Assembly (NCBI RefSeq): GCF_014197795.1
Contig: NZ_JACIGI010000003.1
Location: forward strand, 62,001 to 126,000
From: Roseospira goensis
GTDB taxonomy: Bacteria; Pseudomonadota; Alphaproteobacteria; Rhodospirillales; Rhodospirillaceae
DNA length: 64,000 nt
Reading direction: 5' to 3'
Made by a program: the position numbers and the translations under genes. Numbering within the stretch: the stretch's first letter is position 1; the number at the start of each line of letters is the position of its first letter. Of this stretch, positions 833 through 38,201 are shown piece after piece. Below the pieces are notes generated by a model that had not been told where the DNA came from, did not search any database, and saw nothing but the letters and a program-made list of their open reading frames with translations.

Positions 833-3138
<2,306 letters not shown>

Positions 3139-25757: not shown

Positions 25758-26179
25758 CAAGGGGGTACTGATTCAGGGACCCGACAAAAGGACCTGACAA
25801 AAGAACCTGATAAAAGAACTTGACACGGGGCACGGTGCCCGGTTGGCCAGAGCCGCGTGGCGAATATCTTTGGTGCGACCGTCTTTGGTGCGACCGTCTT
25901 TGGTGCGACCGTCTTTGTTGAGATTGTCGTCGGGGGGCGATCAGGCGACGGGCATCGGTCGGACGGGGCGGGTGAGTCCGGGTCGGAGACGATATCAGAC
26001 GAGAGGGGCGTGCGGCGAATGCGCCGCGGGTACCGCCGAAGGCCAGGCCGAACACCCCGGGGGGAGGTGTCGGCCGCGACGGTCTAACGCGCACCGCGGT
26101 GCGGGCCGCGCCCGTCTCAACAGGTCGTCTCGACACTCTGTCCCCACGCCCCGTCCCATCACACGGACGACCACATCAG
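25758..26179. repeat. Intergenic region with two tandem-repeat tracts before tRNA-Val
   Basis: 422 bp. Tract 1 (25778-25829) is four 13-bp units of the form GACCTGACAAAAG. Tract 2 (25867-25920) is three identical 15-bp units, TCTTTGGTGCGACCG, plus a partial fourth. The fourth unit of tract 1 contains TTGACA. No protein gene was recognised; tract 2 is open in one frame by chance. Confidence 0.75.
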
Positions 26180-26255
26180 GGGCGATTAGCTCAGCCGGTA
26201 GAGCATCTCGTTTACACCGAGAGGGTCGGCGGTTCGAATCCGTCATCGCCCACCA
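26180..26255 (+). tRNA. tRNA-Val (anticodon TAC)
   Basis: A complete 76-nt tRNA with CCA encoded. Acceptor arms GGGCGAT and ATCGCCC pair fully. The anticodon stem TCTCG/CGAGA encloses TTTACAC, giving anticodon TAC. T-arm GGCGGTTCGAATCCGTC is standard. Repeat A copy 2 and the candidate peptide locus follow it. Confidence 0.97.
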
Positions 26256-26577
26256 ACGCGGATCCGACGGCGAACACTCGGATGTGGGAGCCGGCGGCCC
26301 CACCCCACAGCGGTCCTGACCGACAGGATCGTGGAACGGGTGTGAACGCCCCTCCCCCCCCCCCGCACACTCCCGACGCGGGACGCCCGGTGGTGGCCCT
26401 TAGCGCCGATCGCTCGAAATCGGAACCACCCGGGTGGGGCCGATGTCGAGCGTGACTCGGCGCGATCTGTTTGGTTTCAGAGCAGAGCGCCCGAATTCGA
26501 AATCACCATGCGAGTCCGTATTCGGGCGTTCCGCTCTATGGGGCGCACCCACCGGACGCCGGCGGCGCCAGATGGGA
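26256..26577. other. Intergenic region between tRNA-Val and the Cys-rich peptide gene
   Basis: 322 bp. It contains a C10-12 run near 26351-26364 and copy 2 of repeat family A (26401-26538). No gene was seen. The peptide gene's stop codon lies 39 bp beyond the repeat, so the repeat would form part of its 3' untranslated region. Confidence 0.6.
26401..26538. repeat. Dispersed intergenic repeat family A, copy 2
   Basis: A 138-bp copy of the element at 549-699, in the same orientation on the plus strand. It lacks the 14-bp internal duplication. Hairpin 1 keeps CTCGAAATCGG against CCGATGTCGAG (one mismatch). Hairpin 2 keeps GCCCGAAT/ATTCGGGC with mismatches in the outer arm. The central loop TCGAAATCACCATGCGAGTC is identical in both copies. 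Confidence 0.85.
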
Positions 26578-26805
26578 TCAGCCGGCCGCCTCGGAGGTGG
26601 CCGTGGTATCACCCATCTGCTGATTGGCGGCTTGCCCGGCCTGGCAATAGCAGGTGCACCGGCAGCTCGATCCCGGGTCCTCCATCATCTCGCCCATTCC
26701 CATGCCCGTGGCCTGCGCGACGGCGTCACTGTTCCAGCAGACGCAGTTGCACCTCACGGTACCGGCCTTGTTGACCCGGGACGCCTGAAACTTTTCCTGT
26801 GCCAT
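26578..26805 (-). CDS. Candidate RiPP precursor: Cys-rich peptide with CxCxC and CxCxCxC motifs
   Basis: A 75-residue peptide starting 13 bp after the radical SAM stop codon, with GAGGGGG as ribosome site. The N-terminal 18 residues are polar and basic (MAQEKFQASRVNKAGTVR). Then come C19, C21, C23 followed by Trp24, a Met/Gly-rich linker (GMGMGEMMEDPG, 34-45), and C48, C50, C52, C54. The tail is Gln/Thr/Ala-rich. Seven Cys, all in alternating CxC register, suggest thioether cross-linking or metal binding. Position beside a radical SAM/SPASM enzyme makes it the probable substrate. A longer in-frame start at 26835 would overlap the enzyme gene. No family is recognised; function is inferred. Confidence 0.75.
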   Translation of the reverse strand: MAQEKFQASRVNKAGTVRCNCVCWNSDAVAQATGMGMGEMMEDPGSSCRCTCYCQAGQAANQQMGDTTATSEAAG

Positions 26806-26818
26806 GTCGCCATCCCCC

Positions 26819-28357
26819 TCATTGCAGCTCCACATCGTCGGCCCAGCGGAAGGCCTCGTCGGTCTGCTCGCGAATGGCGCAGTACCGGGTCAGCTTGTCC
26901 ACCAGACCTCTTCGCATACCGCGACAGACGTCGCCCAGCCGCGCCTCGGACAACCGATCGCCGTCGCGGATCGAGTTGAAGCACTTCTGGCATAGGCGGA
27001 TCGCCCAGCAGTTCCGGCAGTGTTCACCTAGAAACGTGCTGTAGTCGCGCAAAAAGGCCGCGATTTCGTCCTCATCAAGTCCGGCGCCGATCCGCCCGAT
27101 CGCGCGGTTCTGCACCTTCTCGCACATATACAATTGTCCGTCCGTATCGACGAAGCATTTGCGTTGACCCGGAATACACTGGCCGTGACTCGGCGTGCGC
27201 GCGCCCAGTTTCCGCGAGTCGCGCTTGTGAATGGCCAGCAGGCCATCGCCGATCAGGGCGTGGAGGAACGGGCCGCTACCGCCCGCACGCCGCAGGTCGG
27301 CATCGAAGTGACACATGGCGCGGCCCATCTCGGCGCGGTCGTCGGCGGTGGGGACCGATGGAATCCCCAGAGCCGCGTGGACGGCCGAGGGGTCGCCCGC
27401 CAACGGCGCGATCTGCAGCTTGCCCCGGCTGAACAACGCTGCGTTCTCCGTGATGAACGCGTGAATCTCGGCGAACCGGAACGGAGGCGCCACCACCATG
27501 TTGAACAGGACATGGTCCCGGTACCACTCCGGATAATTCTCCTGGAGCCACCTCACGCGCTGGAAGACGGTGGAGAACGTCCCGTCATTGCCGGCAGTGA
27601 CCCGGTAGCGGTCATGGACCGTCTGGGGCCCGTCGAGGCTGATGGTCAGCACGACGTCGTGGGCGACGCACCAGTCGACAAAGGCGGCGTCGAGCAAGGT
27701 GCCGTTCGTCGTCATGTTGACGCTGACGGGCCGGTCAGTCTGCTGCTTGATGTATTGCAGAAGCTGGGCGATCCTGTCGCGGACCAAGAGCGGCTCGCCA
27801 CCGTAAAAGGCAAAGCCGTACTTCGGCCTGTCGAATGACAGATACCAGTCGGCGGCTTTCTTGGCCATCGCCAGCGTCATCGACCGCGTGCCATGGCGAC
27901 GATTGTGCGGATACGCGCCGGAGAAGGAGCAATACCGGCAGCGCAGGTTGCAGGCTTCGGTCGCGTTGAGGATCAGAAGGTCCGGGCCGGACTGCCGCAG
28001 GACATGTCGCACGCGGTCGATCTCGGCCTCCGAGAACGTGACCACGTCATAGCGCACCGGATCGAACGCCCCGAACGACCGGTAGGCGTCGTACAGCTCC
28101 GCGAGAAGACCGTCGTTCTGCCAACCGCCGGCGGGCACCAGGAGATCACCGTGCTTCGGGTCACCGGCTGGCCCGTCCGCGGACGCGGACTCGTCGAGCG
28201 GAGAGTCCAGGAGGAGAATCTTGTTGGTGCCGGTGTCGTAGATATAAGGACGACCGTTCGGCGTGCTTGGCGTCCTCAGGCGCTTCACCAGCGGCGGCGT
28301 CTGGCGCAGCTTGGCCACGTAGGCCGGGTACGAGAGGATGTGCTGTGAGGCATGCAC
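26819..28357 (-). CDS. Radical SAM/SPASM peptide maturase
   Basis: A 512-residue radical SAM enzyme. The cluster motif CNLRCRYC is at C136, C140, C143. The N-terminal 130 residues include RPYIYDTGTNKILLLDSP, resembling the leader-binding region of SCIFF-type maturases. The C-terminal SPASM domain fits C-x12-G-x4-C (QCIPGQRKC...GQLYMC), then HCRNCWAIRLCQKC and a last DVC, enough for two auxiliary [4Fe-4S] clusters. Such enzymes form thioether or C-C links in ribosomal peptides. The GTG at 28357, preceded by GGGGGG, was chosen; a start at 28417 would add a low-complexity Pro/Arg tail. The peptide gene follows directly. Substrate is inferred. Confidence 0.9.
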   Translation of the reverse strand: MHASQHILSYPAYVAKLRQTPPLVKRLRTPSTPNGRPYIYDTGTNKILLLDSPLDESASADGPAGDPKHGDLLVPAGGWQNDGLLAELYDAYRSFGAFDPVRYDVVTFSEAEIDRVRHVLRQSGPDLLILNATEACNLRCRYCSFSGAYPHNRRHGTRSMTLAMAKKAADWYLSFDRPKYGFAFYGGEPLLVRDRIAQLLQYIKQQTDRPVSVNMTTNGTLLDAAFVDWCVAHDVVLTISLDGPQTVHDRYRVTAGNDGTFSTVFQRVRWLQENYPEWYRDHVLFNMVVAPPFRFAEIHAFITENAALFSRGKLQIAPLAGDPSAVHAALGIPSVPTADDRAEMGRAMCHFDADLRRAGGSGPFLHALIGDGLLAIHKRDSRKLGARTPSHGQCIPGQRKCFVDTDGQLYMCEKVQNRAIGRIGAGLDEDEIAAFLRDYSTFLGEHCRNCWAIRLCQKCFNSIRDGDRLSEARLGDVCRGMRRGLVDKLTRYCAIREQTDEAFRWADDVELQ

Positions 28358-36914: not shown

Positions 36915-38201
36915 ATGTCCCCTTTGGACCCCACGTCCCGTCCCGACAGCACGGACAGCGATCGCGCGGCCGTGATCGACACCGTGGGCGCACCTGGCCT
37001 GTCGGACAGCCTGGCCGGTGCCTTCGATCCGGTCCGGCTGCGGGCCGAGCGCCTGTCCCGGGTGCGGGCCGCGATGGCGGCGGCCGGGCTGGCGGCCGTG
37101 GTGCTGTTCGACCCCAACAACCAGCGTTACGCGACCGGTTCGCGCAACATGTTCGGCTACTTCCTGCGCAACTCGACGCGCTACATCTATGTACCGCTGT
37201 CCGGCCCGGTCATCCTGTTCGAGTACCCCGGCAGCGCCCATACCTCGACCTGGCTGGAGACGATCGACGAGAACCGGGTCTCCAAGGTGGTCTGGTCGGC
37301 GGTCAACCAGCGTGACGGCGACACCGCCCGCCCCTTCGCCGTCGACATCGCCGATCTGGTGCGTGCCGCCGGTCACGGCCGGCGGGTCGGTCTCGACCGG
37401 TGCAGCCACCTGCACGCCCTGGCCCTGGAGGCGGAGGGCCTGGAGGTGGTGGACTGCCAGCAGGACCTGTTGCATGCCCGCCGCCTCAAGAGCCGCGACG
37501 AGATCGCCTGCCTGGCCCTGAGTTGCGCCGCCAGCGAGTCCGCGGTGGCGGCGGTCGAGCGCGCCATCCGGCCGGGGGTGCGCGAGACCGACCTGTTCGC
37601 GACCCTGTACCACGAGACCATCGCCCAGGGTGGGGAGTTCATCGAGACCCGGCTGCTGACCGCCGGACCGCGCACCAACCCGTGGTTCCAGGAGGCCTCG
37701 GACCGGCGGGTGCGGCCGGGCGAACTGGTCTGCCTGGACACCGACACCATCGGCTGCAACGGCTACTACTCGGACTTCTCGCGGACGTTCTTCTGCGGTC
37801 CCGGCCGGCCCAGTGGGGCGCAGCGGTCGCTCTACCGCATGGCCTGGGAGCAGGTGCAGCACAACACCGCGCTGCTGCGGCCCGGCCTGAGCTATCGGGA
37901 GCTGGCGGAGCGAGCCTGGCCGATCCCCGAGCGGGTCTACGACCGGCGCTATCCGTCCATCATCCATGGCGTCGGTCTGCACGGCGAGACGCCCCTGGTC
38001 GCGCACAAGGGCGACTTCGACGCCTATTCCAGCGACGGCGTGCTGGAGCCCGGCATGGTCGTCAGTGTGGAGAGCTATATTGGTGAGCCCGGGGCGCCGG
38101 ACGGTGTCAAGCTGGAGGACGAAGTGCTCATCACCGAGACCGGTGCGGCGCTGATCTCCCGCTATCCCTATGACGACACGCTGCTGGAGCGGATGATCTA
38201 A
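36915..38201 (+). CDS. M24-family protein related to DMSP lyase DddP
   Basis: A 428-residue pita-bread-fold protein. The metal ligands D275, D277, D287, H351, E386 and E401 have spacings equal to those recalled for DddP (D295, D297, D307, H371, E406, E421), and Y346 corresponds to DddP Y366. IETRLLTAGPRTNPWFQE is also strongly DddP-like. The residue equivalent to the reported catalytic base D377 is G357 (HGVGLHGE), so DMSP lyase activity is doubtful. Creatinase or Xaa-Pro peptidase relatives are alternatives. It follows the dioxygenase gene and probably shares its transcript. Residue numbers of DddP are from memory. Confidence 0.85.
   Translation: MSPLDPTSRPDSTDSDRAAVIDTVGAPGLSDSLAGAFDPVRLRAERLSRVRAAMAAAGLAAVVLFDPNNQRYATGSRNMFGYFLRNSTRYIYVPLSGPVILFEYPGSAHTSTWLETIDENRVSKVVWSAVNQRDGDTARPFAVDIADLVRAAGHGRRVGLDRCSHLHALALEAEGLEVVDCQQDLLHARRLKSRDEIACLALSCAASESAVAAVERAIRPGVRETDLFATLYHETIAQGGEFIETRLLTAGPRTNPWFQEASDRRVRPGELVCLDTDTIGCNGYYSDFSRTFFCGPGRPSGAQRSLYRMAWEQVQHNTALLRPGLSYRELAERAWPIPERVYDRRYPSIIHGVGLHGETPLVAHKGDFDAYSSDGVLEPGMVVSVESYIGEPGAPDGVKLEDEVLITETGAALISRYPYDDTLLERMI

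Follow-up and report, generated by a model that had tools for sequence, protein, structure and literature searches.

The window analysed here, a 64,000-nt stretch of DNA from Roseospira goensis (contig NZ_JACIGI010000003.1, positions 62,001 to 126,000), carries on its minus strand two adjoining genes that very probably form an uncharacterized pathway modifying a small peptide, and likely cross-linking it. The first gene (26819..28357) encodes a radical S-adenosylmethionine (SAM) enzyme with a SPASM region, and the second (26578..26805) encodes a 75-residue peptide with seven cysteines. With a probability of roughly 0.7, the two constitute a pathway for a ribosomally synthesized and post-translationally modified peptide (RiPP), in which a maturase resembling CcpM and RumMC modifies the peptide by thioether cross-links. 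The parts of this reading differ in firmness: gene order and conservation point strongly to the peptide as the substrate of the enzyme, the thioether chemistry is held with moderate confidence by analogy, and the topology, cleavage and function of the product are proposed only tentatively. By the same analogy, thioether formation is the best guess and antibacterial action a weaker one. This pair and its two relatives described below are new as a precursor family and distinct in anatomy, and most likely work in the manner of the RumC and CcpM systems.

The peptide gene starts at an ATG (26805) 13 bp behind the stop codon of the enzyme gene and is preceded by a presumed ribosome-binding site, GGGGGA (26813..26818); an alternative longer frame reaches 26835. 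A putative leader, M1–R18 (26752..26805), ends in a basic residue that abuts the first cysteine. Cysteine block 1, CNCVCW (26734..26751), contains C19, C21, C23 and W24; block 2, CRCTCYC (26644..26664), contains C48, C50, C52 and C54; and the tail behind it (26581..26643) may provide the acceptor residues. All of these parts lie on the minus strand. The sequence-only reading had described exactly this small gene with its own ribosome site, behind a complete radical SAM/SPASM enzyme, and both frames are intact within the limits that it gave.

The pair recurs. Among 318 genomes of the host order, searched with a profile of the window enzyme and related enzymes from Chlorobia and Methanothrix (at most five candidates scored per genome), the enzyme is found at E ≤ 1e-50 in three: the host itself and two genomes of one genus in another family (loci L146 and L147). 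These two enzymes are each 38% identical to that of the window, and peptides of 75 and 73 residues are encoded 27 nt downstream of them. Thus a conserved short gene lies directly behind the maturase in all three genomes, as in a RiPP precursor–maturase pair, and the arrangement of enzyme first and peptide second, with two alternating cysteine blocks, is a conserved unit. An alignment of the three peptides has 22 invariant columns, which include all seven cysteines, W24, and G57, A59, Q62, D66, T67, A69 and A74 in the tail; position 53 always carries Y or W, and a basic residue stands right ahead of block 1 in each (R18, K19 and K19). The linker joining the two blocks is poorly kept. The earlier proposal that the peptide is the substrate of the maturase gains support from this recurrence and from the conserved cysteines.

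Codon use alone leaves the status of the small frame as a gene unsettled. It has the best codon score of the six frames (about 0.11–0.12 bits per codon; the others ≤ −0.21), a value reached by 7 of 290 wrong-frame windows, or by 17 of them when only the synonymous part of the score is counted. At 0.29, the enzyme does not fall below the native-gene 5th percentile (0.23; 58 native-gene windows). On the synonymous part, the peptide (0.04) and the enzyme (0.06) are alike in falling below the native 5th percentile of 0.175, which fits a joint arrival of both genes. The small frame is taken to be a real gene because its seven cysteines all return in both relatives, next to an enzyme of this type. 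That it is a chance frame beside an unrelated enzyme is hardly credible: the frame is indeed short and its codon score modest, but 7 of 7 cysteines, and 22 columns overall, would not be expected to stay invariant in three peptides in such a setting. The window peptide has no match in Pfam, and each of the three peptides stays below the cut-off of every NCBIfam model. The best model for the window peptide is the CA_C0660 precursor (NF035954; E 0.05, 13.7 against 60 bits), which gives E 0.23 with the L147 peptide, while the L146 peptide has no NCBIfam match at all; nor does the window peptide match the CLI_3235 (TIGR04065) or Apre_1838 (TIGR04067) precursor models.

The enzyme has 512 residues, from a GTG start at 28357 to a TGA end at 26819, and an alternative longer GTG frame reaches 28417. 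It matches PF04055 (E 1.8e-17, Pfam). The radical SAM cluster motif CNLRCRYC (27929..27952, minus strand) occupies residues 136–143, and its C136, C140 and C143 are unvarying across an alignment of 27 enzymes. The SPASM region, from C394 to C478 (26924..27178, minus strand), has seven cysteines for two auxiliary clusters with the spacing C x12 G x4 C x34 C x2 C x5 C x2 C x18 C. These two motifs place the enzyme among the SPASM-domain radical SAM peptide maturases. Two extra cysteines, C401 and C493, are common to all seven enzymes that were aligned. By NCBIfam, the enzyme is nearest to CcpM and RumMC and is a member of neither model family by their cut-offs. The top model is CcpM (TIGR04068; E 1.3e-76, 258.3 bits; 279.7 and 281.3 bits for the two relatives; cut-off 500), followed by RumMC (NF035951; E 8.7e-58, 196.2 bits; 207.8 and 212.4 for the relatives; cut-off 720). 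The lachnocin maturase model gives 161 bits against a cut-off of 550, and the enzyme is likewise under the cut-offs of PapB (133.5 against 340) and of the SCIFF maturase (TIGR03974; 85.7 against 425). Models of FxsB, XyeB, GrrM and anaerobic sulfatase maturase score more weakly.

The presence of these last models among the matches bears on an alternative that is worth weighing and yet unlikely, namely that the maturase makes carbon–carbon or carbon–oxygen cross-links at W24 or position 53, epimerizes residues, or oxidizes cysteines, and that the thiols are otherwise used. FxsB, XyeB, GrrM and anaerobic sulfatase maturase are SPASM enzymes from related families, their chemistry being taken here as background or from the model names. 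The invariance of W24 and the Y or W kept at position 53 in all three peptides would suit such a reaction. The nearest families, however, CcpM, RumMC and lachnocin, are named for cysteine-rich peptides or sactipeptides, and nothing in the peptide is conserved more strictly than its cysteines, which speaks against this alternative.

A metal-binding role was raised by the sequence-only reading and can be weighed against the wider enzyme family. Metal thiolate clusters commonly contain CxC repeats, and a peptide resembling metallothioneins or metallophores, with free thiols, might stand beside an enzyme that alters it only slightly or has a different target; that no exporter is found among the ten neighbours scanned would agree with this. 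We regard it as rather improbable: the window peptide has no Pfam match, it travels with a SPASM maturase in all three genomes, CxC frames stand beside the enzyme at 17 of 37 related loci, and, of the peptides scanned against family models, those of L014 and L008 belong to families with bacteriocin names. A scan of genome contigs (595 stretches; the best 80 of 350 considered) found related enzymes with at most 36% identity, among others in Clostridia and Planctomycetota as well as in Chlorobia and Methanothrix. Of the 37 enzyme loci, which include the window, L146 and L147, 17 have a same-strand small frame carrying two or more C-x-C within 650 nt, and 12 of these have C-x-C-x-C; on the opposite strand the same criterion selects 3 of 37. 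At least one of the 17, at L032, is probably spurious, as the RumC-type precursor of that locus has a single CxC and is not selected by the criterion.

The cysteine register had been described as different from the known SCIFF, ranthipeptide and streptide patterns, and it is less new than this suggested. The alternating register is not outside known families, since the L014 peptide, a CLI_3235 precursor (TIGR04065, E 1.4e-9), carries CRCLCVC, and RumC-type and Apre_1838 precursors carry CVC, or CMC and CGCHC; the two-block, seven-cysteine peptide, on the other hand, is over no family cut-off. A frame at L013 carries CNCIC. In a planctomycete (L015, 2521–2991, plus strand), a peptide with CACGCPCSCIC followed by CACGCLC is encoded directly before a CcpM-related enzyme. 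In the Chlorobia class, L133 has, 48 nt behind a related enzyme, an 89-residue frame (2483–2752, plus strand) with CGC, CGC and CSCRC; L133 and L134, the remaining two matches in this class, both have downstream cysteine-rich frames of a different kind. L149, classified as a viral contig, encodes a maturase of the RumMC clade and, about 64 nt after it, a peptide with CMC and CVHCGCGC. In the class of the Methanothrix genome, the related maturase of L137, L138 and L139 has another conserved protein, of 382–384 residues (MYFRLNPECY...), behind it.

In the thioether reading, the pathway would work as follows. The N-terminal region of the enzyme would hold the leader, residues 1–18. A 5′-deoxyadenosyl radical from SAM would attack the acceptor residues behind each cysteine block, abstracting hydrogen at the alpha carbon or at a side-chain carbon, and the auxiliary iron–sulfur clusters would help to bind the cysteine thiolate and accept the electron, so that each thioether closes with a loss of 2 Da. 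With a cysteine at every second residue, the donors of one block would lie on one face of a strand, and each block could therefore be stapled to the stretch that follows as a nested hairpin: the three cysteines of block 1 to residues about 25–35, and the four of block 2 to residues about 57–74. These positions are expected by analogy with the links of RumC (Cys24–31, Cys22–35, Cys45–53 and Cys41–61; PMC8188230 and PMC6779426), and the invariant Q62 lies eight residues past C54, as residue 53 of RumC does past Cys45. The product, like ruminococcin C, would then consist of two rigid lobes, here joined by a linker that is not conserved. The core would be freed by trypsin-like cleavage behind R18, or behind K19 in the relatives, through a protease encoded outside the locus, and would most likely act as an antibacterial or signalling peptide. 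A stronger version of this proposal, that the peptides form a RiPP family of their own in which one maturase makes up to seven thioethers (3 + 4) in two zipper-stapled hairpin lobes, and which extends to planctomycetes (L015), is less likely than not and is put forward with reserve. That the peptide is instead a precursor of a redox cofactor or an intracellular signal, trimmed to a small fragment and not antimicrobial, is very improbable; the enzyme-first order of two genes without adjoining export or immunity genes would accommodate it, but both blocks are conserved, which would be needless for a small excised fragment.

Several points weigh against the thioether pathway. Seven donors are an odd number, so one cysteine may stay free, and for the seven-cysteine family we infer the maturase-made bonds from sequence. 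The N-terminal domain of the enzyme is not proven to be a RiPP recognition element: modelled alone, it reaches a pLDDT (predicted local distance difference test) of 59.6 and has no match in the PDB. The leaders of the three peptides share only M1, E4 and F6. The codon score of the window peptide is under the 5th percentile (0.23) of the 58 native-gene windows, and between the congeneric L146 and L147 the peptide is not under strong purifying selection. Neither an exporter nor an immunity gene is found among the ten neighbours on the enzyme side, and no peptidase is found beside the pair. Furthermore, 20 of the 37 enzyme loci have no same-strand frame selected by the CxC criterion. Finally, sister enzymes adjoin a different peptide with two cysteines, whose tail resembles block 2 in a way that is at most suggestive. 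As for the N-terminal domain, both models predict three strands followed by helices, with low confidence at residues 56–78. The comparison of L146 and L147 covers 73 aligned codons, of which 53 are identical, 11 differ silently and 9 change the residue; the nucleotide changes number 8, 3 and 12 at first, second and third codon positions.

The sister enzymes, in Chlorobia (L135, L131, L132) and Methanothrix (L136), are 30–34% identical to that of the window and share C401 and C493 with it. In a tree of 40 enzymes, the window, L146 and L147 are grouped with low support (90 bootstrap; 52 by the Shimodaira–Hasegawa-like approximate likelihood ratio test, SH-aLRT), and together with the Chlorobia and Methanothrix enzymes they form a group at 93/95, separate from a RumMC clade (L008, L031, L032, L149; 100/99) and from a CcpM clade of 13 members (100/100). 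In a tree of 34 without L146 and L147, the window enzyme joins L011 and L012 (SH-aLRT 96). Unlike the window peptide, the small frame beside the Chlorobia and Methanothrix enzymes has two cysteines as one C-x3-C and no alternating block, and it is not selected by the CxC criterion. It is located upstream of the enzyme in the three Chlorobia, with the sequence MEELKEVFPG...C(E/D)DECVGGTASTANMRATM, and downstream in Methanothrix, with ...KCSDECVGGTANSSAMFATN. A small frame with CxDECVGGTAxxxxMxAT is thus common to L135, L131 and L132 and to the archaeon Methanothrix (L136), and two such frames that were scanned have no NCBIfam match.

The CxDECVGGTA tail fits C50–T67 of the window peptide without gaps and matches 6 of 12 invariant positions, and 13 other cysteine-rich peptides match 3 to 5 of the 12. 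A fraction of 0.017 of shuffles reaches 6 of 12, or 0.035 with the cysteines fixed, and a profile version of the test gives 194 and 318 of 4000 (0.05 and 0.08) for the two kinds of shuffle. On these results, firm homology of the two tails was rejected. The sequence-only reading would have been refuted had homologues of the enzyme consistently lain beside another peptide or none and the small frame been unconserved; this is not so for the window, L146 and L147, and the different partner of the sister enzymes is taken by us as ordinary divergence of substrates, not as a refutation. Because the enzyme group is spread over Methanothrix, Chlorobia, a planctomycete and the host order with differing cysteine-rich partners, it seems to move between lineages while its substrate changes.

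The distribution is sparse. The enzyme is not found in six of six congeners at E ≤ 1e-20 (one genome is 88% complete), nor, at E ≤ 1e-30, in 384 other genomes of a class sample and 397 other genomes of a phylum sample, in which at most three candidates were scored per genome. Matches at E ≤ 1e-50 occur in 5 of 98 genomes of the Chlorobia class and in 4 of 237 genomes of the class of the Methanothrix genome, and matches at E ≤ 1e-60 in 2 of 382 genomes of a sample of the planctomycete phylum. Owing to the limited candidates per genome and to the best 80 of 350 matches considered above, nearer enzymes may have been missed. Four further matches in the congener search (L004–L007) were rejected as orthologues: they are QhpD (TIGR03906, 720–762 bits), the maturase of quinohemoprotein amine dehydrogenase. 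A scan of genome contigs and viral contigs with the window enzyme alone led nowhere. Among plasmids, the window peptide and the enzyme of a relative have no match, and the window enzyme has four distant records; among phages, it has six distant matches, none above 31.4% identity, in faecal records that lack annotation. Viral contigs searched with two further queries (A2 and A5) gave one distant locus and nine loci, respectively, the nine including L149–L151. In the loci compared, a strict in-frame pattern gave only low-complexity frames beyond the copies of the window, L146 and L147.

Upstream genes of the window are presumably clpX, lon and hupB, labels given from sequence without a family scan, and tRNA-Val (tac; 26180..26255, plus strand) forms the border of a lon–hupB–tRNA-Val block and a variable stretch. 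In five congeners examined beyond lon, hupB and tRNA-Val follow lon in four, as in the window, and in the fifth (G001) neither is found in the 8 kb past lon. Beyond tRNA-Val, the three congeners whose available sequence extends that far differ from one another and from the window: G003 has a protoglobin chemoreceptor, G005 a protein of flavin adenine dinucleotide (FAD)-oxidoreductase/GCV_T type, and G002 a frame without a Pfam match. The pair looks acquired, because it is absent from six congeners, has unusual codon use and lies in this variable stretch. The lower G+C content of the enzyme gene had also been read as a hint of acquisition, a point that falls: its 64.6% is matched by the genes labelled lon (65.3%) and clpX (64.2%), and G+C was rejected as proof, codon use being the better sign. 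The tRNA as a proven insertion point was likewise rejected, as no attachment-type direct repeat was found between 26100 and 28700.

The ten genes scanned on the enzyme side include a protein of mannose-1-phosphate guanylyltransferase/isomerase type, a carbon–nitrogen hydrolase, parts of a glycine-betaine-type ATP-binding cassette (ABC) importer, a LysR regulator and two frames without a match. The earlier remark that no protease or exporter is adjacent thus holds for the immediate neighbours and for an exporter among these ten, but an M24-type peptidase (36915–38198) is located 8.5 kb from the pair. Elsewhere in the genome, a search with one domain model, C39, found a single C39-type peptidase domain in a 1275-residue frame. 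Behind the peptide gene, a strong hairpin (26479..26537, minus strand; z −5.3) may stabilize or terminate the transcript. It lies within a dispersed element with two copies in the window (about 601–699 and 26454–26537), both of which form a strong hairpin and agree exactly over a 41-nt core; the core is absent from the other loci compared, save copies of the window itself. A short tandem repeat of TTTGGTGCGACCGTC is also present at about 25868–25917, between hupB and tRNA-Val.

The results define a three-member precursor family with a strict every-second-residue register of cysteines, in a minimal two-gene form fit for co-expression and in an alphaproteobacterial order. The pair would test how a SPASM enzyme chooses acceptors when the donors are two residues apart, and whether a two-lobe fold like that of RumC can carry seven links. 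Sactipeptide clusters had already been predicted in Proteobacteria (PMC8172795); a peptide of this anatomy was not found described in the open-licence literature of PubMed Central (PMC).

Among solved structures, the top one by profile and by fold is CteB, the SCIFF (ranthipeptide) maturase (PDB 5WGG/5WHY). It is only 16–18% identical to the window enzyme, whose whole-model alignment to it starts at residue 21, and its lead by fold is slight: the fold listing holds many general radical SAM folds with a near tie in the top rows, so that absence of a family from it is meaningless. The CcpM/CLI_3235 systems resemble the pair in the top NCBIfam score for the enzyme and, at L014, in a precursor with alternating cysteines. 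They differ in that the precursor is encoded upstream of the enzyme (e.g., L014, L016, L018, L020, L022) and in that the L014 precursor has one cysteine block, and the window peptide does not match TIGR04065. For a product of a CcpM-type cluster, SacP23 of Paenibacillus polymyxa, PMC10731318 reports a cysteine-rich 42-residue core behind a 19-residue leader; made in a heterologous host, it is reported to be antibacterial and active against methicillin-resistant Staphylococcus aureus (MRSA), and its bonds are not worked out there.

RumC, with the enzymes RumMC1 and RumMC2, is also among the nearest systems described. In PMC8188230, the SPASM spacing of RumMC is C x13 G x4 C x36 C x2 C x5 C x2 C x18 C, of the same type as that of the window enzyme, which also scores with this family (NF035951), and RumC has a leader of about 19 residues that is cleaved after Lys19. 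According to that paper and to PMC6779426, the four thioethers of RumC arise in two hairpin domains through abstraction of hydrogen from the alpha carbon by RumMC2, and killing by RumC requires both removal of the leader and the bridges; alpha-carbon links of this kind are reported to leave dehydro residues on fragmentation of RumC. A putative leader of about this length and two cysteine-led regions are also present in the window peptide. The gene order agrees as well, the RumC-type peptide being downstream of the enzyme in Lacrimispora (L032, +49) and Sarcina (L008); the Lacrimispora enzyme exceeds the RumMC cut-off, and the "RumC-type" label of its peptide is ours. RumC has four bridged cysteines and the window peptide seven cysteines, the linker and acceptors are unlike, the enzymes fall in separate clades, and the host genome has no second such maturase at E ≤ 1e-20.
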